Shown here: positions 1 to 41,332 of the stretch, in pieces
Layout: each line of letters begins with the position of its first letter
Numbering within the stretch: position 1 is the first letter of the stretch
Assembly: GCF_003574965.1 (NCBI RefSeq)
Contig: NZ_CP032317.1
Coordinates: 2,728,001 to 2,792,000 of the forward strand
Origin: Hymenobacter oligotrophus
GTDB lineage: Bacteria > Bacteroidota > Bacteroidia > Cytophagales > Hymenobacteraceae
Reading direction: 5' to 3'
Length of the DNA: 64,000 bases
Position numbers and translations under genes: made by a program
Notes under the pieces: model-generated
Told to the model about the DNA's origin: nothing
The model's database searches: none
What the model saw: only the letters and a program-made list of their open reading frames with translations

Positions 1-23
1 TAACCTAGGTCTGCAAACATCTG

Positions 24-61
24 AAAGCGGCCGGAGCATTGGGAAAAGCTCCGGCCGCTTT
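24..61 (+). terminator. Rho-independent terminator of a gene left of the window
   Basis: A 14-bp GC-rich inverted repeat (GCGGCCGGAGC and its complement) closes on a short loop and is followed by TTCGTTTT. It probably ends a gene lying off the left edge. Confidence 0.7.
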
Positions 62-204
62 TCGTTTTGTACGCGCCGTATTTGCGTGCCGGCCCAGGCA
101 GCCGGAAGCGTGTCGCAAATGCCCCCTAGGGTTGTCGCAATAGCACACCGCCGCTACGTTTAACCCGCTGTACATTTGCTACATACCTTCAAAACACCAC
201 AGCC

Positions 205-636
205 ATGGCCAAGAAAATTTTTGTCAACCTGCCCGTCCGGAACCTCAACGCCTCCATTGAGTTCTTCACGCAAGTGGGCTTCGCGTTCAACCAGCAGTTC
301 AGCGACGAAAACGCTACCTGCATGGTCATCAGCGAGGATATTTACGTGATGCTGTTGGTGGAGCCATTCTTTCAAACCTTCACGCCCAAGGCCATTGCCG
401 ACAGCAGCCAGAGCACGGAGGTAATTATTTGCCTTTCGGCCGATAGCCGCGCCGAGGTCGATGCCCTCGTTGACAAAGCCATGGCGGCGGGTGCTAAGCA
501 GTCGAAGCCCCTGCAAAACCACGACTTTATGTATGCGCGCAACTTTCAGGACCCCGACGGCCACCTGTGGGAGGTGATGCATATGGACCCCGCCGTGATT
601 GAGCAAGCACAGGCCGCCGCGGTTAATGCGGTGTAG
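205..636 (+). CDS. VOC family (glyoxalase/bleomycin-resistance-like) protein, copy 1
   Basis: A 143-residue protein of the vicinal-oxygen-chelate superfamily. It opens with the beta strand KIFVNLPVRNL, typical of these small extradiol-dioxygenase/glyoxalase-like folds, and ends with NFQDPDGHLWEVM, the DPDGHxWE motif in which the Glu usually binds metal. The length fits a single-domain VOC protein that dimerises. The substrate cannot be deduced. A colinear, roughly 70% identical paralog lies at 3108-3539, so the two are recent duplicates flanking the DUF805 gene and the RiPP operon. A strong hairpin terminator follows at 661-703. TACATTTG at 171-178 could be the -7 element. Confidence 0.9.
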   Translation: MAKKIFVNLPVRNLNASIEFFTQVGFAFNQQFSDENATCMVISEDIYVMLLVEPFFQTFTPKAIADSSQSTEVIICLSADSRAEVDALVDKAMAAGAKQSKPLQNHDFMYARNFQDPDGHLWEVMHMDPAVIEQAQAAAVNAV

Positions 637-660
637 CGCCCCAAACTATTACCACTGAAA

Positions 661-703
661 ACGCGGCGCGGCGGCAGCTCCCGGAGCTGCCGCCGCGCCG
701 CGT
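661..703 (+). terminator. Strong intrinsic terminator after VOC copy 1
   Basis: A 19-bp perfect GC-rich stem (661-679 with 685-703) has a five-base loop and runs into TTTT. It ends the VOC transcript. The rest of 637-946 holds CCTAGG at 741 and 878 and nothing else I recognise. Confidence 0.85.
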
Positions 704-946
704 TTTTCAACAAGCGTACGGTGCAGCCAGGCGCTTGGCGGCCTAGGTCGGGTTGCTGGCTTTTGGCCATTGCGGCACCTTATTTGCGCCGGGCAGTGCT
801 TTGCTGGTTTCGGTAAGCGCTGGCCGATATTCACCCCCCAGAATGTACCCAACCGGCGCCCCAACGTTATAAGGCACCTAGGCAGCAGCGCCGCACAAGG
901 CAACAGCTAAAGCCTAGCACTTAAAACCTATAAACCATACCTACGC

Positions 947-1324
947 ATGCGCTACTTTCTGCGAGCCTTCGACAAATTCGGGGTGTTTACCGGCCGGGCC
1001 AGGAGAAAGGAATACTGGATGTTTATTGCCTACCAAGCTTTGTTTGGCGCTACGGCCTTCCTGCTCGATAACATCCTGGGCATCACCCTCGACGACGAAT
1101 CGGCTTTGGGGTACACCCAGCTGATGTACCTGCTGGCCGTAATCATGCCGAACGTATCGGCGGGCACGCGGCGCCTCCACGATGTAAACCGCAGCGGCCT
1201 CAACCTGCTGGCGGTGTTTGTGCCCGTGGTGGGCTGGGCGTGGCTGCTGTATTTGCTAAGTGCCGAGGGCACGCCGGGCCCCAACCGGTACGGCCTGGCC
1301 TACCACAAAATATTTGCTTACTAA
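947..1324 (+). CDS. DUF805 family inner-membrane protein
   Basis: A 125-residue membrane protein matching DUF805: the N-terminal F-x-GRARRKEYW motif, then three or four hydrophobic segments, and the conserved RRLHDVNRSG motif near residue 70, as in E. coli YhaH/YhaI. It sits in the cytoplasmic membrane. No biochemical role is established for the family. It is a single gene converging with the MNIO gene through a shared hairpin terminator at 1351-1385. Nothing suggests transfer or truncation. Confidence 0.9.
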   Translation: MRYFLRAFDKFGVFTGRARRKEYWMFIAYQALFGATAFLLDNILGITLDDESALGYTQLMYLLAVIMPNVSAGTRRLHDVNRSGLNLLAVFVPVVGWAWLLYLLSAEGTPGPNRYGLAYHKIFAY

Positions 1325-1350
1325 GCTGCCTAGGTATTTCTCGTTACGCC

Positions 1351-1385
1351 AAGCGGCGGCAGCTACCCGGTAGCTGCCGCCGCTT
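1351..1385. terminator. Bidirectional terminator between DUF805 and the MNIO gene
   Basis: The stem AAGCGGCGGCAGCTA pairs with TAGCTGCCGCCGCTT across a short loop, with T-rich sequence on the right. It serves both convergent genes. Confidence 0.8.
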
Positions 1386-1424
1386 GTTTATTGTTGCGCC
1401 ACCTAGGGCAACGGCCGCCGCGGG

Positions 1425-2558
1425 TTATTTCTTCCACTTGCGGGCAATGTGCAGGGCGGTTTCCAGCATGTGCGGCTCCCACTGCTCAATGCACCAATCG
1501 GAGTGCGCCAGGCTAGACGTTTGCAAGAGGTGCTGCGCCTCGGTGTAGCTACCGGCGTTTTCCAGTATATCGGAAAGCTGGCGCTGTTGCTGGTGCAGGT
1601 GCTCGTCTTCGGCGGCGGGGCCGGGCAGCCAGGCTTGCAGGGGCCGAAACGCGTTGGCGGGCTGCGGGCGCCAAGTGGCGCGGTGGTGGGCCACCAGGCT
1701 TTCCATCCGGGCAAAATCCGCGCGGAACTGGGCGCGGCTGGCTTCGGCATGCAAAGCGTGGCCGAGTTGCTCCAGCACCACAAACTTCAGATTGGGGCAG
1801 CGCGGCATCGTCCATTCGAGCAGCTGAAACACTTCGGCGGGCACGGCATCGTCGTGGGTGTCGCGGCGAATGCGCCGGCCGGGCGCCAGCGCCGAATCGT
1901 GCCAGCTGCCGCCCGAAATGTGAATTTCGCGCACGCGCTCCAGGGGGTACAACGCAATCAGCTCGTCGTAAGGCAACCCAAAGTTGTGGAGCTGACAGTA
2001 AAGGTTGTGCAGGTCGAGGATCAGGAAGCCGTTGACGGGCAGTAGCAGCTCTTCCAAAAACGCACCGTGGCGCTTTACTTCGTCGGGGGTGTACGCAAAA
2101 GCGAGGTTCTCGAGGCCCACGGGGCAGCGGCAGGCCTCGTAAATGCGCCGCAGCCGATCTTGCCCGATGCGCAGCGCGTGCCGGGTGTACGGAATGGGCA
2201 GCGGCGCGCCGTGGTGGAAGTTTTGGCCCGTGAAAAACCCGAAGTGCTCGGTAACGTGGTCGAAGCGAAATTGCTCGGCCAACTGCCCTAGGTGCGCCAA
2301 CCACTGCTGCTGCTCGGGGCTCCATTTGCCCGACAGCAACGAAAAAAACACGCCGTGGCCCACCAGCCGGCCGGCCTCGGCGTAGGTATGCAGCAGGGCC
2401 GTAAACCACTCGGGTACCTGCTCGGCCCAGTACAGCGCGTCGAACGACCACTCCAACGCCTCCACCCGGCCTTCTTCGAGCAACGGGAAAGCAGCGGCGA
2501 GCAAGTCGGCGTCGAGGTTGCAGGCTACCGAGGCGTAAATGGCAGGAGCGGCTTGCAT
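1425..2558 (-). CDS. DUF692 / multinuclear non-heme iron oxidase (MNIO), chryseobasin-type RiPP maturase
   Basis: A 377-residue DUF692 (MNIO) protein. The family uses two or three iron atoms in a TIM barrel to remodel Cys residues of peptides; MbnB, TglH and ChrH are characterised members. Candidate ligands at family positions: H68 (GHGV), E104 (VTEHF), E150 (GLENL), D182/H184/N185 (LDLHN), H213 (EIHISGG), H235 (DTHDD) and E263 (VLEQ). The barrel ends near residue 295. An extension of about 80 residues, rich in Gln/Glu/His/Trp, follows and is unusual against the common 280-300-residue size. The start lies 25 bp after the stop of a 49-residue precursor ending CPACGMG, so the two form an operon. 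The family call is firm; the product is inferred. Confidence 0.92.
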   Translation of the reverse strand: MQAAPAIYASVACNLDADLLAAAFPLLEEGRVEALEWSFDALYWAEQVPEWFTALLHTYAEAGRLVGHGVFFSLLSGKWSPEQQQWLAHLGQLAEQFRFDHVTEHFGFFTGQNFHHGAPLPIPYTRHALRIGQDRLRRIYEACRCPVGLENLAFAYTPDEVKRHGAFLEELLLPVNGFLILDLHNLYCQLHNFGLPYDELIALYPLERVREIHISGGSWHDSALAPGRRIRRDTHDDAVPAEVFQLLEWTMPRCPNLKFVVLEQLGHALHAEASRAQFRADFARMESLVAHHRATWRPQPANAFRPLQAWLPGPAAEDEHLHQQQRQLSDILENAGSYTEAQHLLQTSSLAHSDWCIEQWEPHMLETALHIARKWKK

Positions 2559-2583
2559 GCGCGGTGACGGTATAGCCGGTGGC

Positions 2584-2733
2584 TTAGCCCATGCCGCAGG
2601 CGGGGCAGTTAACAGGCGTTTTGGTGCTGCCCTTTTCTTCTTTGGGCTTTACGTCGTCTTTCACGCAGCTCGTGGTGGTTTGAACGGTAAGGCCAATCAG
2701 CACGGCGCCCAGTACAGCTTTTGGAAGTTTCAT
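2584..2733 (-). CDS. Chryseobasin-like MNIO RiPP precursor peptide (C-terminal CPACGMG)
   Basis: A 49-residue peptide. The start at 2733 is chosen because it gives MKLPKAVLGAVLIGL, a short basic-then-hydrophobic leader ending at a lipobox-like TTTSC (C23). A charged Lys/Asp/Glu linker follows, then the core NCPACGMG with C43 and C46. The two-Cys glycine-rich C terminus beside a DUF692 enzyme matches the chryseobasin class of Bacteroidota RiPPs, in which ChrH rearranges the core Cys residues (established for Chryseobacterium, recalled from the literature). An upstream start would add 30 residues that look non-coding. Whether C23 is lipidated, and whether the product is exported, is unknown. 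No dedicated protease or exporter is adjacent. Confidence 0.85.
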   Translation of the reverse strand: MKLPKAVLGAVLIGLTVQTTTSCVKDDVKPKEEKGSTKTPVNCPACGMG

Positions 2734-3107
2734 GACGAGGCAGTTAGCGGTTGAAGCGTCTACAAAATAAGGTTCAGCATGGCGAGTCGGATACTGGCCG
2801 AAAGGTTGCATCGTTGCCGGCACTAAGCCAAAGCCCTAGGTGCCTAGGCCTCTTGGTTAGGCAACAACCGCAGCCGAGCAGCCACCTGCCCGCACGAGCC
2901 AGCTTCATGCACCACTACCTGTCTTAGAGCAGGTATTACCACAAGAGAACGGCCTTGGAGCCGCTTAACATGTAGGCATATATTTTTATTGTCAAAGATT
3001 TGAAAGCCAGCTTTTAATCTTCGCCACCTATAAACATTTACTAATTACATTAGCAATCAATCAGAGAAGCCAATACATTTAGTCTTTATCACCAAAACAC
3101 CACTGTT
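2734..3107. other. Divergent intergenic region between RiPP precursor and VOC copy 2
   Basis: These 374 bp must hold the promoters of both the RiPP operon (leftward) and the second VOC gene (rightward). CCTAGG occurs twice, 9 bp apart, near 2833-2847. The right half (2970-3100) is AT-rich for this genome. I could not fix a convincing promoter or operator. Confidence 0.5.
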
Positions 3108-3539
3108 ATGCCTACTAAAATCTTCGTAAACCTGCCCGTTCGGGACCTCAGCGCCGCTATCGAATTCTTCACCAAAGTTGGCTTTCAATTCAACCCACAG
3201 TTTTCCGACGAGCGGGCTACCTGCATGGTCATCAGCGACGACATTTACGTGATGCTGCTGGTGGAGCCTTTTTTTCGAACTTTCACCCCCAAATCCGTCG
3301 CCGACGCCACCCAAACCACTGAAGTAATCCTGTCGCTCTCGGCCGATAGCCGCGAAGAAGTAGACCACCTCGTGGACAAAGCCATGGCCGCGGGCGCTAC
3401 GGCATCCTGGCCCCTGCCCGATTCTGACTTTATGTACACGCGCAACTTTCAGGACCCCGACGGCCACTTGTGGGAGGTAATGTACCTGAACCCGGCGCTG
3501 ACGGAGCAAGGGCAACCCGCCGCTGAAATCAGCGCCTAG
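3108..3539 (+). CDS. VOC family protein, copy 2
   Basis: A 143-residue VOC protein, gap-free against copy 1 at 205-636 and about 70% identical by eye. It keeps KIFVNLPVRDL at the N terminus, FSDERATCMVIS in the middle and NFQDPDGHLWEVM near the end. Differences cluster in the last 15 residues and around residues 97-106. The role is unknown beyond the fold. It is divergent from the RiPP operon and convergent with the TlpA-like gene, from which a hairpin at 3607-3642 separates it. Confidence 0.9.
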   Translation: MPTKIFVNLPVRDLSAAIEFFTKVGFQFNPQFSDERATCMVISDDIYVMLLVEPFFRTFTPKSVADATQTTEVILSLSADSREEVDHLVDKAMAAGATASWPLPDSDFMYTRNFQDPDGHLWEVMYLNPALTEQGQPAAEISA

Positions 3540-3606
3540 GTGCTGAACAAGGACTTTGCGCAAAGCAACCGGGTGGGGCCGCCACTGCGGTAGCGTTGCA
3601 AACAGC

Positions 3607-3642
3607 ACAGCCGCAGCGGGGCGTTGCTCCCGCTGCGGCTGT
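3607..3642. terminator. Bidirectional terminator, VOC copy 2 / TlpA-like gene
   Basis: ACAGCCGCAGCGGG pairs with CCCGCTGCGGCTGT over an eight-base loop, placed between two convergent stop codons. Confidence 0.8.
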
Positions 3643-3655
3643 TCGTGTTAGGCCC

Positions 3656-4786
3656 TTACTTAAGCAGTTGCGCAAGCGTCTTTTGCAGTTCCTCGCTGCG
3701 CAGGTTCACGGCCACGATCTTCCCTGCGGGGTCGATCAGGAAGTTTTGCGGAATGCTTTGCACGTGGTAGCGCCGGGCCACTTCGTTTTCCCAGCCTTTC
3801 AGGTCCGATACTTGGGTCCAGGGCAGTTTGTCGTCCTGAATGGCCTTCAGCCATTTTTCCTTGGCGTTTTCTTTGTCGAGCGATACGCCCAGGATTTCGA
3901 AGTTGCGGCTTTTGAACTGGTTATAGGCCTGCACTACGTTGGGGTTCTCCTGCCGGCACGGGCCGCACCACGAGGCCCAAAAGTCAACCAACACGTACTT
4001 GCCCCGGTAGTCGGCCAGCGAAATCGTTTTGCCTTCGGGGGTTTGCTGGCTGAAGGCGGGCGCCGGGGCGCCAATGGCAATGTCCTTAACCGTCTCCAGC
4101 TTCTCCCCGAAGCTTTTTCCCGCGGGGCTATTTTTCAGCGCCGGGCTGAGCGCCTGGTAGAGCGGGGCCAGCTCGGCGTACTGCGGTACGCCCATGCCCC
4201 CAACTTGCACCAGCGCATTAAGGCTTACCCAGGTGTTGGGGTTGGCGCGCACAAACCCAAGCTGCGCCTGGCGCGTTTCCTGCCATATGCCGGTAAACTT
4301 TGCGTTTAGGCGCTGCTGAAAAGCGGGGTCGTTGCGCTGGGCCTCAGTGGCCTGTTTCGCCTCGCGTCCCAATGCATCCATCTTGGCCGTCATGGGCTTG
4401 TACGCTGCCAACAGCCGGTTGTAATCGTTGTTGAGCTGCGTGCCCGTAACGCGGGCGTTGGGCAACGAATCGGGTGTGCTGACCACGATGGTGCCGGGCT
4501 CCAAAATGAGATTTCGGTAATTAAGCACCGCGCCATACGCGTTTTTCAGGCCGCCGCGGCGGCGCACAATCAGGCGCACTTCGCGCGGCTCAGCCGTGGT
4601 GCCCTTCAGCTCGAAAGCGCCGTTCCGCAACGTGGCCGAATCGGCCAGCTCGGCCCCGCGCACCAAGTAAATTTTGGCCGGCGCATTCAGCTTGCCCACG
4701 GTGCCTTTGATAACGTAGGGCTGCGCGGTTTGGGCCAGCGCAAAACCAGGGGCTAGCAGCAACCAGCCGAGTAAGTATTTGTGCAT
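3656..4786 (-). CDS. TlpA-family thiol:disulfide oxidoreductase with DUF4369 domain
   Basis: A 376-residue periplasmic thioredoxin-like protein. Signal peptide MHKYLLGWLLLAPGFALAQ, then a DUF4369 beta domain (about residues 24-110), a helical linker (110-235) and a C-terminal AhpC/TlpA thioredoxin fold with the redox motif WASWCGPC (C274, C277). Bacteroidota carry many such proteins, thought to reduce periplasmic disulfides, for example in cytochrome c maturation. It is monocistronic here. Closeness to the Cys-peptide RiPP operon (0.9 kb) is noted, but the opposite-strand VOC gene lies between, so a link is speculative. Confidence 0.9.
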   Translation of the reverse strand: MHKYLLGWLLLAPGFALAQTAQPYVIKGTVGKLNAPAKIYLVRGAELADSATLRNGAFELKGTTAEPREVRLIVRRRGGLKNAYGAVLNYRNLILEPGTIVVSTPDSLPNARVTGTQLNNDYNRLLAAYKPMTAKMDALGREAKQATEAQRNDPAFQQRLNAKFTGIWQETRQAQLGFVRANPNTWVSLNALVQVGGMGVPQYAELAPLYQALSPALKNSPAGKSFGEKLETVKDIAIGAPAPAFSQQTPEGKTISLADYRGKYVLVDFWASWCGPCRQENPNVVQAYNQFKSRNFEILGVSLDKENAKEKWLKAIQDDKLPWTQVSDLKGWENEVARRYHVQSIPQNFLIDPAGKIVAVNLRSEELQKTLAQLLK

Positions 4787-4928
4787 AAAGAATCAGTTAG
4801 AGCCGAAGCAATAAAACACTAAATCCGGATTCTCGGGGCCTCTGGGCGCGGCTAGCAACAGCCGCCGCGAGGCCAGGCACCGGTGCTCAGTTGCGAGCAA
4901 CAGCCAAACGGCGTTGCTGCCACGACTA

Positions 4929-5360
4929 TCAGATATGCGACGCTACCACGGTTTGCGCACGCAGCCAAACACGGGCGTCGGCTTCGTTGCTGAAGTGCTT
5001 GAACGTGGGCGCCTTGGGCCAATCGAGCAGATGCGGGTCTATTGTGTTCATCCAAGCCATGGTTTCGGGCGGGCTTACCAGCGCGGCGTAGCGGTAGTTG
5101 CCTTGCACCACGGCGCGCGGCAGCCAGTTGGCCACCACCCAGTGCTGCTCCTCGGCCGTTATGGGCGCAACGTTCTTGTGGTCGACGAGGGCCTTGCCGG
5201 TGCCAGTTGCCCGAATTACCCGCAGCAAGGCGTTCATGGCTTCTTGGTAATCGGCTAGGCGGCGCGTGCCGGGCAAGCACCGCATATAGGCAAAACCCTC
5301 CGGATCGGGTTGCACCTCGGCAAACGCATTGGCAAAGCGAAACTGATCGGGAGCAACCAT
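4929..5360 (-). CDS. Hypothetical protein, SpoIIAA/STAS-like
   Basis: A 143-residue protein starting MVAPDQFRFANAFAEV. A longer start at 5435 adds 25 residues that look non-coding, so the internal Met is preferred. The pattern of a short strand, YQEAMNALLRVIRATGTGKALVDHKN, and a C-terminal FSNEADARVWL helix resembles the single-domain SpoIIAA/STAS-like proteins common in Bacteroidota. No catalytic motif is visible and no function can be assigned. The gene stands alone, transcribed leftward. Confidence 0.65.
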   Translation of the reverse strand: MVAPDQFRFANAFAEVQPDPEGFAYMRCLPGTRRLADYQEAMNALLRVIRATGTGKALVDHKNVAPITAEEQHWVVANWLPRAVVQGNYRYAALVSPPETMAWMNTIDPHLLDWPKAPTFKHFSNEADARVWLRAQTVVASHI

Positions 5361-5524
5361 GCGAAACGGCAAACGACGATGGAGGAGGTGGGCTAAGGTA
5401 CTGGGAATCGTGTTAATACGTCGCGGGCCAGGCAAAAGGCCACAACCTTAATGCTCCGCCAAGTTTTTTGGCGGCGAGGCGCCGCTACCCACCCCGGGCC
5501 CGTGGGCCCGGCCACCAAACAAAA

Positions 5525-5549
5525 TTGCCCAGGGCAGGGCCCTGGGCAA
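5525..5549 (-). terminator. Intrinsic terminator after the 72-residue protein gene
   Basis: TTGCCCAGGGC and its complement form an 11-bp stem; read leftward it is followed by TTTTGTTTGG. It sits 30 bp past the stop of the gene at 5580-5798. Confidence 0.7.
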
Positions 5550-5579
5550 CGCAAATAAACGCGCAGTGCCGGGTACGTT

Positions 5580-5798
5580 CTAACGCACCACGAAACCTTT
5601 GGCTTCCCAGGCTTTCACGTTCTGGGTACGCACAAAGCGGGTTTCGATGTGGCCCCAGGCATCTTGCTTGTACATCACGGTTTTGCCTTGTTCGCGTGCC
5701 TGCAGCGCTTGCATGTGCTCGGCGTGCGAAAGAGTAACCGTAGGAGTAGCCGGTTCAACAGATTTAGCCCCGCGGGGGCGCTTAGAGGATGTTGCCAT
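5580..5798 (-). CDS. Small hypothetical protein (72 residues)
   Basis: A short reading frame with a basic, Ser/Pro-rich N terminus (MATSSKRPRGAK) and a mixed alpha/beta-like C terminus containing HAEHMQALQAREQGKTVMYK and WGHIETRF. I recognise no family. Support for it as a gene: a terminator just downstream at 5525-5549 and a 320-bp gene-free region upstream. Confidence 0.55.
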   Translation of the reverse strand: MATSSKRPRGAKSVEPATPTVTLSHAEHMQALQAREQGKTVMYKQDAWGHIETRFVRTQNVKAWEAKGFVVR

Positions 5799-5965
5799 AT
5801 GCTTGTAACCGCAGCCGGATGGAAAAGGATCAGCTTAAGTTCAATTACCCCAATAAATTTTTATGGTTGCTTGCGGCTGAAGATTCTGTGACTGACACCA
5901 ATGCTCCAGAACGGCCAAGCATTTTGTTTATCTGGCTGCCACTGAACGCGTAAGCTGCTCGAGCT

Positions 5966-6012
5966 AGGCATTGCTCCTTTGCTGCTCAAGCGGCAGCTAA
6001 GGAGCAATGCCT
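5966..6012. other. Long intergenic hairpin
   Basis: AGGCATTGCTCCTT (5966-5979) pairs perfectly with 5999-6012, and the intervening bases can form a second inner stem (GCTGC/GCAGC). It lies between the lpdA terminator and the start of the 72-residue gene. It has no T-tract, so it may be a leader structure or a repeat remnant. The rest of 5799-6120 shows nothing else. Confidence 0.5.
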
Positions 6013-6054
6013 ACCGCACGCACAGGGCACGGAATACAAGCACCAAGCGGAATG

Positions 6055-6101
6055 CAACCAAAAGCGGCTGGAGCTACGGTAGTCCCAGCCGCTTTTGGTT
6101 G
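6055..6101 (-). terminator. lpdA terminator
   Basis: CAACCAAAAGCGGCTGG pairs over 17 bp with 6085-6101, about 20 bp past the lpdA stop. The A/T-rich lower stem gives a U-tract when read leftward. Confidence 0.8.
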
Positions 6102-6120
6102 CTGCCTTTCGGCTTAAAAA

Positions 6121-7527
6121 CTACATGTGCAGTGCCCGGTTCTCCGTTGCGGCCAAGCAAGCTTCCTTCATGGCTTCGGCGTAGGTGGGGTGGGCGTGGC
6201 TCATGCGGGCTACGTCCTCGGCGGAAGCACGGAACTCCATGGCCGTTACGGCCTCGGCAATAAGGTCGGCAATGCGCGGGCCGATCATGTGCACGCCCAG
6301 GATTTCATCGGTTTCCTTGTCGGCCAGCACTTTCACGAAGCCGTCGAGGTCCATGGAGGCGCGGGCGCGACCCGAGGCCCGGAAGGGGAACGAGCCGGTT
6401 TTGTAGGCCTTGCCCATTTCCTTGAGCTGCTCTTCGGTGTAGCCCACACCGGCCACTTCGGGCCAGGTGTATACCACGCCCGGGATGAGCAGGTAGTTGA
6501 TGTGCGGCTTCTGCCCGGCCAGCGTTTCGGCCACGTACACGCCTTCTTCCTCGGCTTTGTGGGCCAGCATGGCCCCGCGAATCACGTCGCCAATGGCGTA
6601 GATGCCGGGCGTGGTGGTTTGCAGGTGCTCGTCTACCTTAATGCGGCCGCGCTCTTCGAACTGCACGCCGGCGGCTTCTAGGTTCAGGCCCTGGGTGTAG
6701 GGCGAGCGGCCCACGGCCACGAGGCAGTAGTCGCCTTCAAACTTTACTTCCTCGCCTTTCGGGTTGGTAGAGGTTACGGTTACCACGTCGCCGGCGCGGG
6801 TGGCCCCGGTTACCTTGTGGCTCAGGAAAAACTGAATACCGATTTTGCCGAGCACGCGCTTGAGCTCCTTGCCGAGTGCGCCGTCCATGGTCGGAATGAT
6901 CGCATCGGTGTATTCGACCACCGACACCTTGGCGCCTAAGCGGGCGTACACCGAAGCCATTTCGAGCCCGATAACGCCGCCGCCGATAACCACGAGGTGT
7001 TTGGGTACTTCGCGGATGTTCAGGGCCTCGGTGCTGGTGATGATGCGCTCCTTATCCTGGGCAATGAAGGGCAGCACCGTGGGCTTGGAGCCCGTCGCAA
7101 TGATGGTGTACTTGGTTTCGATTTGCTGCGCCTCGCCGCCCTCGGTGGGCGCGATGCTGATGTGGTTTTTATCAATGAACGAGCCCACGCCGCGCAGCAC
7201 CTCGATTTTGTTCTTTTTCATCAAGAACTGGATGCCGTCGGTATTGGCCTTCACCACTCCGTTTTTGCGGTCGATGAGCTGGTTCATGTTAATGCGCAGG
7301 TCGCTCAGCTCAATGCCGTGTTCCTTAAAGGTGGTGTGGGCATTGTGGAAGTGCTCGGTGCTATCGAGCAGGGCCTTGCTCGGGATGCAGCCTACGTTGA
7401 GGCAGGTACCACCTAGGTTGGGGTATTTCTCGATGAGGGCCGTTTTGAAGCCGAGCTGGGCGCAGCGGATAGCCGCCACGTAGCCGCCGGGGCCGGAGCC
7501 GATGACGGTAACGTCGTATTGGTTCAT
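6121..7527 (-). CDS. lpdA: Dihydrolipoyl dehydrogenase (E3)
   Basis: A 468-residue flavoprotein that reoxidises dihydrolipoyl groups of the 2-oxoacid dehydrogenase and glycine cleavage complexes, using FAD and NAD+. Visible: FAD-binding GSGPGGYVAA (residues 10-19), redox disulfide GGTCLNVGCIPS (C42 and C47), NAD-binding VIGGGVIGLEMA near residue 180, the second FAD motif AIGDV near 320, and the catalytic HAHPTYAEA near 445. Length is typical. It likely serves the odhA/odhB complex, the branched-chain E1 fusion and the glycine cleavage system encoded in this window, though it is not in an operon with them. Confidence 0.97.
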   Translation of the reverse strand: MNQYDVTVIGSGPGGYVAAIRCAQLGFKTALIEKYPNLGGTCLNVGCIPSKALLDSTEHFHNAHTTFKEHGIELSDLRINMNQLIDRKNGVVKANTDGIQFLMKKNKIEVLRGVGSFIDKNHISIAPTEGGEAQQIETKYTIIATGSKPTVLPFIAQDKERIITSTEALNIREVPKHLVVIGGGVIGLEMASVYARLGAKVSVVEYTDAIIPTMDGALGKELKRVLGKIGIQFFLSHKVTGATRAGDVVTVTSTNPKGEEVKFEGDYCLVAVGRSPYTQGLNLEAAGVQFEERGRIKVDEHLQTTTPGIYAIGDVIRGAMLAHKAEEEGVYVAETLAGQKPHINYLLIPGVVYTWPEVAGVGYTEEQLKEMGKAYKTGSFPFRASGRARASMDLDGFVKVLADKETDEILGVHMIGPRIADLIAEAVTAMEFRASAEDVARMSHAHPTYAEAMKEACLAATENRALHM

Positions 7528-7689
7528 GCTGAAAATCGGGTTGGTAAGCGCGTGCCGGCAAAGGTAAGGCAGAATGCCGAGGCAGGCGGGGAAATGTGCA
7601 GCTTGGGTGAAGGGAGCTTTTTAGATTGACCTAGAAGCCTGGTGCGAAAGCAAAGGTTTAGGCTAGTAGAAGCCACGACTGGGCCTAAC

Positions 7690-7748
7690 GCTAGTTCCCC
7701 TCCTCAGATGAATTCCGCGCCTCGAGCGGCGTGGGCTAGGGGTAATTG
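7690..7748 (-). repeat. Degenerate inverted copy of the CCCCTCCTC repeat
   Basis: CTAGTTCCCCTCCTCAGATGA followed, after about 24 unrelated bases, by GGGCTAGGGGTAATTG matches the reverse complement of the repeat at 7798-7841, with its middle replaced. With that copy it forms an inverted pair between lpdA and the M1 peptidase gene. Confidence 0.6.
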
Positions 7749-7797
7749 ACCTCGGTATTTGAGCTGCACCTAGGACTAGCTACTAATTCTAGCCTTT

Positions 7798-7841
7798 CAA
7801 CCACCCCTAGCCCCTCCTCATCTGAGGAGGGGAATTAGCTT
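7798..7841 (+). repeat. 44-bp dispersed hairpin repeat, copy A
   Basis: CAACCACCCCTAG, then a hairpin with arms CCCCTCCTCA and TGAGGAGGGG, then AATTAGCTT. It matches the element at 11161-11204 at 43 of 44 positions. This is a REP-like intergenic repeat type; no gene is encoded in it. Confidence 0.85.
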
Positions 7842-7887
7842 ATACCTCTAGCCTTTGGTGCTGGCTAGCTATTACCTAGCACAGGTT

Positions 7888-9543
7888 TTAATCCACCAGC
7901 ACGCCGATGTAGTAATTAAAGGTGTCGACTTCGAGGTTGTCGCGGGTGGCGCCGGGCAGGTCGATGGGCTCGAAGCGGGTGGTGGGCTGCACAAAGCGGT
8001 ACTCGCCGCCTTTCAGCCGCACGCGCACGGGCATATCGAAGCCGGGCACATCGGCTACCCAGCGGGCCAGGGTTTGGTTGTTTTCGAAGCGCACCTCCAG
8101 CGTGGGCAGGCCGGGGTGGCGCAGGTACTGATCGAACACTTTGGTGAGGTTGCGGCCGCTTTGCTGGTTGACGTAGCCAATGACTTGCTCGGCCGTGACG
8201 GTTTGGTGGTAAAACTGCTGCCCCAAGCCACGTAGAATCTGCCGCCACTGCTCGTCGTTGCTGATGATGGTGCGCACCATGTTCAGCACGTTGGCGCCCT
8301 TGTCGTACATGTCGCCGGAGCCCTCGCGGTTTACGCCGTAGGTGCCGATGATGGGCGCATCGTTCTGGATGTTGCGGCGCTGGCCGTGCACGTACTCCTG
8401 CCCGGCTTGCTTACCGAAGAGGCTTTCCGTAAACAACGATTCGGAGTAGCTCGTGAACGACTCGTGAATCCACATGTCGGCAATATCCTTGGCGGTAATG
8501 TTGTTGCCGAACCACTCGTGGCCGCTTTCGTGAATCACGATAAAGTCCCACTTATCGCCCCAGCCGGTGGCCGAGCGGTCTTTGCCTAGATAGCCGTTCT
8601 GGTACTTGTTGCCGTAGGCCACGGCGCTTTGGTGCTCCATGCCGAGGTGCGGCGTTTCCACGAGCTTGTAGCCGTCTTCGTAGAAAGGGTACGGCCCAAA
8701 CCAGTGCTCGAACGACTTGAGCATGGGCTTGACGTTGGCGCCAAATTGCTTGCGGGCTTTCGCGAGGTTTTCGGGCAGTACCCAATAGTCGAGCGTCAGC
8801 TTGCCTTTTTCGCCCTGGTACGTATCGTCGAAATGCTCGTAGTTGGCCACGTTCAGGGCCACGTCGTAGTTGTTGATGGGGTTCGAGACAAACCAATCAA
8901 AGCGCGTGGCACCGCCCTTCAGCTTGGTGGTTTTGCGCAGGCGGCCGTTCGAAATATCCTTCAGGCCTTTGGGCACCGTTACGCTGATGAGCATGCTGTC
9001 GGGCTCGTCGGACTGATGGTCTTTGGTGGGCCACCAAATGCTGGCGCCAATGCCCTGGCAGGCCGTAGCTACCCAGGGCTGGCCCTTGCCGTGCTCCGCA
9101 AACACAAAGCCGCCGTCCCAGGGGGCGTGTTGGGCCACGGTAGGGTTGCCTGAGTAGTACACCCGAAACTCGTCGCGGGTGCCTTGTTTAATTGGCTGCG
9201 GAAACGTAACGAACACCGCGTTGAACTCTCGCTTGAAAGGCAGCTCCTGGCCGCGGTACACCACCCGATCAACCTTCAGGTTGGCAAACAGATCGAACTG
9301 CAGGCGCGTGAAATCCTGCGTGGCCGCAAACCGAAACAGGTTGGAGCCACTGATGTAGCGCTTGGCCACGTCGAGTTTTACATCGAGGTGGTAGTACTGC
9401 ACGTCGTAGCAGCTGCGGGGTGGCGTAAGCGAACCGCGCAGCGAGTCGGCGCGCGTGAAGGCAGGCTTGGGCTGCATGAGCTGAGCAGCGCCTAGGTGCG
9501 GCAGCGCTAGTACGGCCAGGAAGCAGAGCATGGCTCTGAGCAT
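7888..9543 (-). CDS. M1 family zinc metallopeptidase
   Basis: A 551-residue secreted aminopeptidase-like protein. A signal peptide is evident (MLRAMLCFLAVLALPHLGAA). The exopeptidase-type motif GMEHQ is at 301-305 and the zinc motif HESGHEW at 338-344 (H338, E339, H342), with the third ligand Glu in WIHES (E361). Length and order match the short M1 peptidases of Bacteroidota, which lack the large helical C-terminal domain of PepN/ERAP. It probably cleaves peptides in the periplasm or at the surface. The gene is monocistronic, with a 360-bp repeat-bearing gap downstream. Confidence 0.93.
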   Translation of the reverse strand: MLRAMLCFLAVLALPHLGAAQLMQPKPAFTRADSLRGSLTPPRSCYDVQYYHLDVKLDVAKRYISGSNLFRFAATQDFTRLQFDLFANLKVDRVVYRGQELPFKREFNAVFVTFPQPIKQGTRDEFRVYYSGNPTVAQHAPWDGGFVFAEHGKGQPWVATACQGIGASIWWPTKDHQSDEPDSMLISVTVPKGLKDISNGRLRKTTKLKGGATRFDWFVSNPINNYDVALNVANYEHFDDTYQGEKGKLTLDYWVLPENLAKARKQFGANVKPMLKSFEHWFGPYPFYEDGYKLVETPHLGMEHQSAVAYGNKYQNGYLGKDRSATGWGDKWDFIVIHESGHEWFGNNITAKDIADMWIHESFTSYSESLFTESLFGKQAGQEYVHGQRRNIQNDAPIIGTYGVNREGSGDMYDKGANVLNMVRTIISNDEQWRQILRGLGQQFYHQTVTAEQVIGYVNQQSGRNLTKVFDQYLRHPGLPTLEVRFENNQTLARWVADVPGFDMPVRVRLKGGEYRFVQPTTRFEPIDLPGATRDNLEVDTFNYYIGVLVD

Positions 9544-41023: not shown

Positions 41024-41332
41024 ATGAAATTCTCCTTCAAAACCCTGCTGGCAGTTGCCGCCTTCGCTGCTTTCGCTACGACCTCGTGCAGCGAGAAAAC
41101 CCAAGAAAACGCCGAAGCTACGACCGAAAGCGCAGCCAACGATGCGGCCAACGCTACTTCGGATGCGGCTAACGCCACCTCGAACGCTGCCGATGCCGCT
41201 GGCAACGCCGCCGCCGATGCCGTAACGCCCGACAACGACGGCCAGAACACCGTAGCTCCCGAAAAGGGCGACACCGCCATGGTGCAAAACAAGCCCGCCG
41301 ATGGCGTGGTTGACGAAACCCAGAAGAAGTAA
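41024..41332 (+). CDS. Small Ala/Asn-rich lipoprotein
   Basis: A 102-residue lipoprotein: MKFSFKTLLAVAAFAAFATTSC with lipobox TTSC, then low-complexity tandem units of the form DAANATS / NAADAAG (about residues 38-66) and an acidic Lys-ending tail. Such Ala-rich heptad-like repeats can form a helical rod as in Lpp. No domain is recognised. A strong terminator follows at 41357-41390. Confidence 0.75.
   Translation: MKFSFKTLLAVAAFAAFATTSCSEKTQENAEATTESAANDAANATSDAANATSNAADAAGNAAADAVTPDNDGQNTVAPEKGDTAMVQNKPADGVVDETQKK

Follow-up and report, generated by a model that had tools for sequence, protein, structure and literature searches.

The window analysed here, a stretch of 64,000 nucleotides of Hymenobacter oligotrophus DNA, carries a two-gene operon in which a small precursor gene is followed on the minus strand, after a 25-bp gap (2559-2583), by a gene for an MNIO (DUF692) enzyme. 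The precursor ORF runs from an ATG start to a stop codon that is included in its coordinates (2584-2733, minus strand), with the sequence MKLPKAVLGAVLIGLTVQTTTSCVKDDVKPKEEKGSTKTPVNCPACGMG. Its 49-residue product has Cys residues at positions 23, 43 and 46, and C43 and C46 belong to the C-terminal core CPACGMG. The preliminary description had placed a 49-residue peptide ending in NCPACGMG, with Cys at 43 and 46, 25 bp upstream of a DUF692 gene on the same strand, and coordinates, gap, strand and sequence all agree with it. The features of the locus are as follows, the basis of each being given in brackets.

1350..1386, no strand given: terminator-like hairpin of 17 pairs (located between the MNIO gene and the convergent DUF805 gene)
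1425..2558, minus strand: MNIO (DUF692) gene, DybH/HymH-like, 377 aa, ATG start (PF05114; NF050165; AlphaFold2; Foldseek)
2584..2733, minus strand: precursor gene, DybA/HymA-like, 49 aa (NF050125 match; MNIO neighbour kept in relatives)
2587..2607, minus strand: codons of the CPACGMG core, predicted site of the -4 Da macrocycle/hydantoin
2665..2667, minus strand: codon of the lipobox Cys23, predicted S-diacylglycerol site (lipobox-like Cys in relatives)
2668..2733, minus strand: signal peptide, residues 1-22, n/h-region MK[LI][SP]K.LL.A...G (pattern; 48 family and 89 wider precursors)
2784..2788, minus strand: -10-like element GACTC, family consensus GG[CG]TC (conserved columns, near-fixed spacing)
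2804..2811, minus strand: candidate ECF-type -35-like element ATGCAACC (8-mer enrichment; only strong site in the window)

The precursor scored 79.2 bits against NF050125 (NCBIfam ChrA_rel_RiPP), the model of the chryseobasin-related MNIO class RiPP peptide, whose cut-off is 40. The genome of the window has a single match each to the precursor and MNIO families. The pairing of small frame and enzyme put forward in the preliminary description is conserved among relatives. Precursors above the cut-off were found in 48 of 204 Hymenobacteraceae genomes, and a ChrH-like MNIO above 300 bits accompanied the precursor in 46 of these 48, while the remaining 156 genomes had none. One exception (G465) has its MNIO cut by a contig end, leaving 67.8 bits; in the other (G424) the precursor is decayed with its CPACGMG gone, and the MNIO is absent from both the 17-kb locus and the genome. 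An ORF ending in C..CG.G lies upstream of the MNIO gene in all 46 family loci read, and the core Pro is kept in 46 of the 48 precursors; the invariance of the core and lipobox Cys residues among these 48 precursors (46 loci) is partly a selection effect. In a wider set, every one of 81 loci (the window and 80 named loci) has at least one CxxCGxG precursor no more than 1.5 kb upstream of the MNIO gene, for 89 precursors in all, with two or three per locus in seven. Out of 226 confirmed relatives the best 80 make up the named loci, which therefore lean to close kin; many of them come from the same genomes as the other loci. The family-model scores and the co-occurrence confirm that the precursor ORF is real and exclude a chance match. 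Neither precursor nor MNIO had a match in PHROGs. Upstream of position 9001 in a Taibaiella chishuiensis locus (L265) are three tandem precursors, one without the lipobox Cys; this one resembles a signal peptidase I substrate and retains K-LLQA and a C-terminal CPPCGRG.

A Pfam scan of the four neighbours gave a DUF805 protein, two glyoxalase-like proteins and an AhpC-TSA/DUF4369 protein; no known RiPP gene was among them, nor were ChrI (DUF1772), ChrE or ChrP. The two glyoxalase-fold genes (PF00903; 205-636 and 3108-3539, both plus strand) encode similar 143-aa proteins and stand on either side of the DUF805 gene and the RiPP pair, as though these had been bracketed by a duplication. The T tail of the terminator-like hairpin is on the plus strand. 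No Rfam match was found in positions 1-9000 of the window. Across the 81 loci the pair has no widely recurring third gene as a neighbour: the most frequent other cluster of ORFs of at least 90 aa, with MNIO antisense frames set aside, reached 15 loci. Genes labelled SusC-like, FecR-like and ECF-sigma-like from reading of their sequences, without a family scan, occur in 15, 7 and 6 of the 81 loci, respectively. Five Chitinophagales loci (L229, L239, L256, L270 and L282) have ECF-sigma-like and FecR-like genes downstream of the pair, and all but one of these loci have a SusC-like gene there as well.

The enzyme matched PF05114 with 112.6 bits (cut-off 25). Its AlphaFold2 model (pLDDT 88, pTM 0.90) shows an MNIO barrel followed by three C-terminal helices (319-334, 338-346 and 362-376) that make up a helical domain at about residues 319-376, and the best Foldseek matches in the PDB were TglH (8hci) and MbnB (7tcr). 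Nine residues, H68, H105, E150, D182, H184, H213, D233, H235 and E263, are invariant among 40 homologues, and we take them to be the iron ligands by analogy to MbnB. Against the ChrH equivalog model NF050165 the enzyme scored 368 bits, far under the cut-off of 600. That cut-off was passed in none of the 204 Hymenobacteraceae genomes, and in a phylum sample (n=395) by two genomes of one other genus with 686 and 707 bits. Since the equivalog cut-off is unmet, the enzyme is DybH/HymH-like and strictly not ChrH, and because S-methylating ChrH lies above that cut-off, an unmethylated product is expected. The comparison with ChrA/ChrH suggested at the outset thus came out in two halves: the precursor is over the ChrA-related cut-off and the enzyme (368 of 600 bits) is under that of ChrH.

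The kind of system found here is already published, because Chen et al. 2025 (PMC12636315) characterised this clade. In the accessible text of that paper, clusters consisting minimally of a precursor and an MNIO are reported from Dyadobacter, Chitinophaga and Hymenobacter, CPxCGxG is modified by the MNIO alone in this clade, and DybAH, ChsAH and HymAH give -4 Da products. DybH is active without a partner protein, and by itself gives the -4 Da product in vitro too. The product is a hydantoin/macrocycle, and lipidated DybA, isolated in tri-acylated form with lipidation through the lipobox (third) Cys, is called a "DAG-RiPP" (PMC12636315). The window pair has the traits of this kind, namely a CPxCGxG precursor, a lipobox Cys, an MNIO core with C-terminal helices and no partner gene, and probably is a DAG-RiPP operon of the DybAH/HymAH kind. 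The earlier proposal of a minimal, self-contained MNIO pair of the chryseobasin class is supported by the NF050125 and PF05114 scores and by the same architecture in PMC12636315, as far as its text was accessible.

Several described systems are close. HymA/HymH of Hymenobacter gelipurpurascens, compared here by its description in PMC12636315, is like the window pair in consisting of precursor and MNIO, in its CPxCGxG core and in its genus group; its core is CPGCGLG where the window has CPACGMG, and the -4 Da product was obtained by co-expression of HymAH. DybA of Dyadobacter crusticola shares the CPACGMG core and the third Cys in a lipobox, and a -4 Da product and tri-acylation in E. coli were shown for it (PMC12636315, accessible text); DybA/DybH belong to another family. 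Chryseobasin ChrA/ChrH (PMC10214503, accessible text) likewise combines an MNIO with a C-terminal domain and a CPACGMG core, but differs in its S-methylated +10 Da product, its SPI signal and its ChrI/E/P neighbours. An MKIP.LLMASLL N-terminus is found in the two loci whose MNIO is above the ChrH cut-off.

The preliminary description had also proposed that the leader carries a lipobox and that the peptide may be exported as lipoproteins are, which fits the clade of PMC12636315 with its third Cys in a lipobox and its tri-acylated DybA, so far as that text was accessible. By pattern match TTS precedes C23; the residue at -3 is T or A, not L, in the 48 family precursors. A lipobox-like Cys is present in 88 of the 89 wider precursors, which were picked by C-terminal motif and position and whose starts were set by hydrophobicity only. 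Comparison of 206 equal-length pairs among the 48 family precursors (46 loci) gave nonsynonymous/synonymous ratios of 0.285 for codons 2-20, 0.18 for the last eight codons and 0.597 for the linker. The pattern M[KNEHR][LIV][SP][KQ].[LVI][LI].[AT] fits 82 of the 89 wider precursors, and small residues occupy positions 6, 10 and 14 in 79. L8, A10 and G14 are present in 48/48 family precursors and in 84, 83 and 83 of the 89 wider ones.

Such conservation could be a mere by-product of the peptide being short or highly expressed, as with other small lipoproteins, and serve no special function, an explanation that we regard as a serious if somewhat less probable one. It was weighed against lipoproteins from the same genomes. 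In 28 genomes (2 of 30 fell under the cut-off and were dropped) signal-peptide identity was 0.53 for the precursor versus 0.30 for BamD, though the mature parts were alike (0.375 and 0.383); identity of the precursor linker was 0.25. In 29 genomes (1 of 30 lacked a lipobox and was dropped) the values were 0.55 for the precursor and 0.34 for GldK, although the mature part of GldK is more conserved (0.52). Over these longer distances residues 2-10 are far less alike in the controls, with 0.14 for BamD versus 0.64 for the precursor and 0.20 for GldK versus 0.66. In the BamD comparison the precursor starts had been chosen with the N-terminal motif as an aid, and starts set by hydrophobicity alone gave the same values (0.531, 0.641 and, for the linker, 0.248). 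At short range the result is different. A small control lipoprotein at position 41024 of the window had a signal identity of 0.66 against 0.69 for the precursor in the same 24 genomes, which favours the by-product explanation; this control, in a family-only search, had no match in the three genomes of genus g4 and weak matches (E 4e-4 and 8e-4) in the two of genus g3. A second within-family control gave 0.32 against 0.68, after removal of three loci in which no lipobox could be parsed; among the rows retained in these family comparisons at least one (G422) was truncated at an incorrect Cys. A neighbouring lipoprotein had too few orthologues for use as a control. Set against BamD and GldK, the signal peptide is clearly constrained over long distances; by the within-family controls, its conservation does not stand out over short ones.

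The sequence constraint on the signal peptide, judged from these comparisons, appears to be new. A relaxed selection on the N-terminus under C-terminal recognition was suggested in PMC12636315 (accessible text), and the constraint seen across Bacteroidota would speak against this suggestion, at least for the lipidated clade. Because it is constrained in sequence, the signal peptide may do more than routing, and a second role is a tentative proposal on our part. A leader role in the chemistry is disfavoured, since the C-terminal heptapeptide suffices for modification and a GFP-CPACGMG fusion is modified without the signal peptide (PMC12636315, accessible text).

What the lipopeptide does at the membrane bears on a further explanation, in which it is a surface-exposed ligand or antimicrobial that reaches the surface by the Bacteroidota lipoprotein export signal and carries a ring like the B ring of nisin. 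The C-V-K-D-D of the window is an exact fit to this signal, C-X-K-(D/E)2 (PMC5080379, accessible text), and Chen et al. likened the product ring to the lipid-II-binding B ring of nisin (PMC12636315, accessible text). As a family trait, however, the export signal was rejected: it fits only 5 of the 48 family precursors, and in 31 of the 48 the net charge at +2 to +6 is zero or above. The lack of a widely recurring gene beside the pair in the 81 loci also counts against this explanation, which we consider improbable. The lipopeptide of the window itself would be lipid-anchored and is perhaps surface-exposed, as its signal suggests.

Upstream of the precursor is a bipartite element that resembles a promoter recognised by an ECF sigma factor. 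In the window its -35-like part is found 78 nt ahead of the start codon of the precursor. By an unbiased 8-mer count, 30 of the 48 family upstream regions contain ATGCAACC, where 0.38 would be expected, and TGCAAC was present in 46 of 48. In the alignment, which was anchored on TGCAAC so that those six columns are fixed by construction, the other conserved columns are A at 0, C at +7, TT at +9/+10, T at +29 and A/G at +36/+37, with little information in the rest. A block [GA][GA][CG]T[CT] follows about 16 nt after AAC, its T and C each being kept in 40 of 47. The strict form of this -10-like block is 16 nt after AAC in 28 of 46 sites and 17 nt in 6, or 34 of 46 together. In each of the two tandem arrays of the family there is one site, ahead of the first precursor. 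The usual Bacteroidota promoter pattern, TTG-N-TAnnTTTG, was absent from all 62 of the 120-nt upstream stretches searched. An upstream ORF in place of a promoter was also considered and set aside, as 20 of 46 are in frame and 23 of 46 meet a stop.

Weight-matrix scans, confined to GCAA places in the window and in 3.24 Mb of sequence and to GCAA or CAAC places in the organism's own genome, showed that the element is rare. The window site scored 22.2 and the next best of the 64 kb 11.0. In the 3.24 Mb, which are partly redundant through overlapping loci (2.79 million distinct 31-mers) and are in large part not from Hymenobacteraceae, 49 hits exceeded 17: 46 at precursors, one at a decayed precursor and two at bamD. 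The link to bamD was not sought, since the bamD loci had been taken as signal-peptide controls. These two sites are at -83 and -88 nt in Solirubrum puertoriconensis and Hymenobacter sp. H14-R3 (L306 and L307); the element is in two of seven Hymenobacteraceae bamD regions and absent from the other five, and among 21 other bamD regions no site exceeded 17 (best 12.4). The decayed precursor of G424, the Hymenobacteraceae genome without MNIO, lies at 8160-8303 (minus strand) of L101; it keeps its lipobox, and its promoter-like site still scores 25.3. The first 800 kb of the own genome gave two hits above 17, both unconvincing as regulon members: one is inside an opposite-strand 659-aa frame, about 320 nt from the next downstream gene, and the other has a poor -10.

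Comparable elements with different letters precede precursors of other clades. In the Chitinophaga group TGTAAC[CT]TT-N-CGTT is present in 14 of 15 upstream regions, with CGTT 16 or 17 nt after AAC. A family that includes a Dyadobacter has the different element GTTACAAC in 10 of 18 upstream regions (one locus, L130, was unparsed and left out), and the Saprospirales group has CCCAACC-N-GT[CT] in 7 of 14; in these two counts sites with a -10-like block were favoured among several matches, a bias from which separate k-mer counts are free. Scans of the clade loci placed the variant elements at precursors save for two Saprospirales hits with low scores (16.8 and 16.2). No clear element was found in other Chitinophagales, in three Sphingobacteriales or in the two ChrH-type loci.

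These observations can also be read as a plain DybAH/HymAH operon with an ordinary promoter, in which the conserved block serves as a binding site for a transcription factor or as a vegetative promoter element of this family, with no ECF sigma factor taking part. No ECF sigma factor is linked to the element, the -10 is degenerate in 12 of 46 sites where the strict match is missing, and another clear member is absent in the 800 kb of the own genome, all of which agree with this explanation. However, AAC-N16 to 18-[CG]GT[CT]-like bipartite blocks recur in other clades with differing -35 letters, and the element is too rare for a general promoter: it occurs a single time in the window, and in the 3.24 Mb of partly redundant sequence its sites away from intact precursors were limited to those at bamD and the decayed precursor. 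An ordinary promoter is rather unlikely in our estimate, and ECF-type control of the pair, as read from the upstream sequence, is somewhat favoured.

The argument for ECF control is drawn from the good architecture of the motif and from a precedent in Caulobacter, where two DUF692 operons are under the control of sigma-F during metal stress (PMC3511200, accessible text); these operons are now described as bufferins, and Buf1 bufferin clusters are described as containing sigma and anti-sigma genes. As in the window, an MNIO gene stands behind an ECF(-like) promoter, there GTAACC-N16-CGAA, whereas the DUF2282 precursor, the DUF2063 and DoxX partners, the experimentally shown sigma factor and the anti-sigma gene are particular to Caulobacter (PMC3511200, accessible text). 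The accessible text of PMC12636315 reports no regulation of HymAH, and a literature search, with most subscription journals outside its coverage, found no published ECF control of this RiPP class. The ECF-like promoter ahead of the precursors, as recognised from its sequence, appears to be new.

The Caulobacter case invites the idea that the product is a membrane buffer of copper or another metal, like lipidated bufferins and oxazolins, with metal-responsive ECF control. Precursor residues 36-48, over CPACGMG, have a sub-threshold Pfam match to HMBD (heavy metal binding, PF19335; 13.8 of 23.6 bits), and 9 of the 89 precursors, in Saprospirales-type loci (L241, L251, L254, L260, L261, L263, L268 and L274), have an extra C-x3-C-x-[IVL]-[DN]-H block in an otherwise free linker, which is possibly a second metal-binding or modification site. 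The gig operon of C. metallidurans presumably contains a DUF692 gene. It is copper-induced and adjoins the ECF gene rpoQ, but deletion of rpoQ raised gig expression (PMC10304878, accessible text). The sigma-F that governs the Caulobacter DUF692 operons takes part in the response to chromium and cadmium, yet those operons have different precursors and partner genes (PMC3511200, accessible text). A report of metal binding by the hydantoin/macrocycle product was not found in the sources consulted, and the 81 loci show no widely recurring neighbour of the pair. A metal buffer is considered unlikely.

We favour a minimal DAG-RiPP operon that yields a lipid-anchored modified peptide, with an ECF-type promoter and a constrained signal peptide, and give this whole reading a probability of about 0.7. 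In the proposed mechanism, transcription would start from the ECF-sigma-type promoter upstream of the precursor. The MNIO would oxidise C43-P-A-C46-G-M-G in the cytoplasm by four electrons (-4 Da), giving a thiohemiaminal macrocycle, a hydantoin and a free thiol. The modified peptide would then undergo Sec export, lipidation at C23 and cleavage by signal peptidase II, and the end product would be a 27-residue lipopeptide on the membrane with its modified C-terminus displayed. This order of oxidation, export, lipidation and cleavage is highly likely by homology. Before cleavage the signal peptide may pace export or dock on a partner. With an ECF-sigma-type promoter, the lipopeptide would most likely be made on an extracytoplasmic (envelope or metal) signal; that the inducing signal is envelope or metal stress is a tentative assignment.

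The kind of operon being known, the remaining interest lies in its regulatory signature and in the signal-peptide constraint. The biological role of DAG-RiPPs is stated to be unknown by their discoverers (PMC12636315, discussion). The ECF-like promoter ahead of the pair parallels sigma-F control of the Caulobacter DUF692 operons, and a conserved ECF-type promoter with clade variants would turn the role of DAG-RiPPs into a testable question and provide a first clue to their purpose. It is conceivable, though we would not put it at even odds, that DAG-RiPPs are envelope-stress effectors, with a dedicated ECF sigma factor per clade (together with bamD in some species) and with the signal peptide as a recognition or pacing element that lets modification occur before export. 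The constrained signal peptide suggests that peptides of this class are not free to vary at the N-terminus, a point of relevance to the competition between a cytoplasmic enzyme and Sec export and to lipopeptide engineering.
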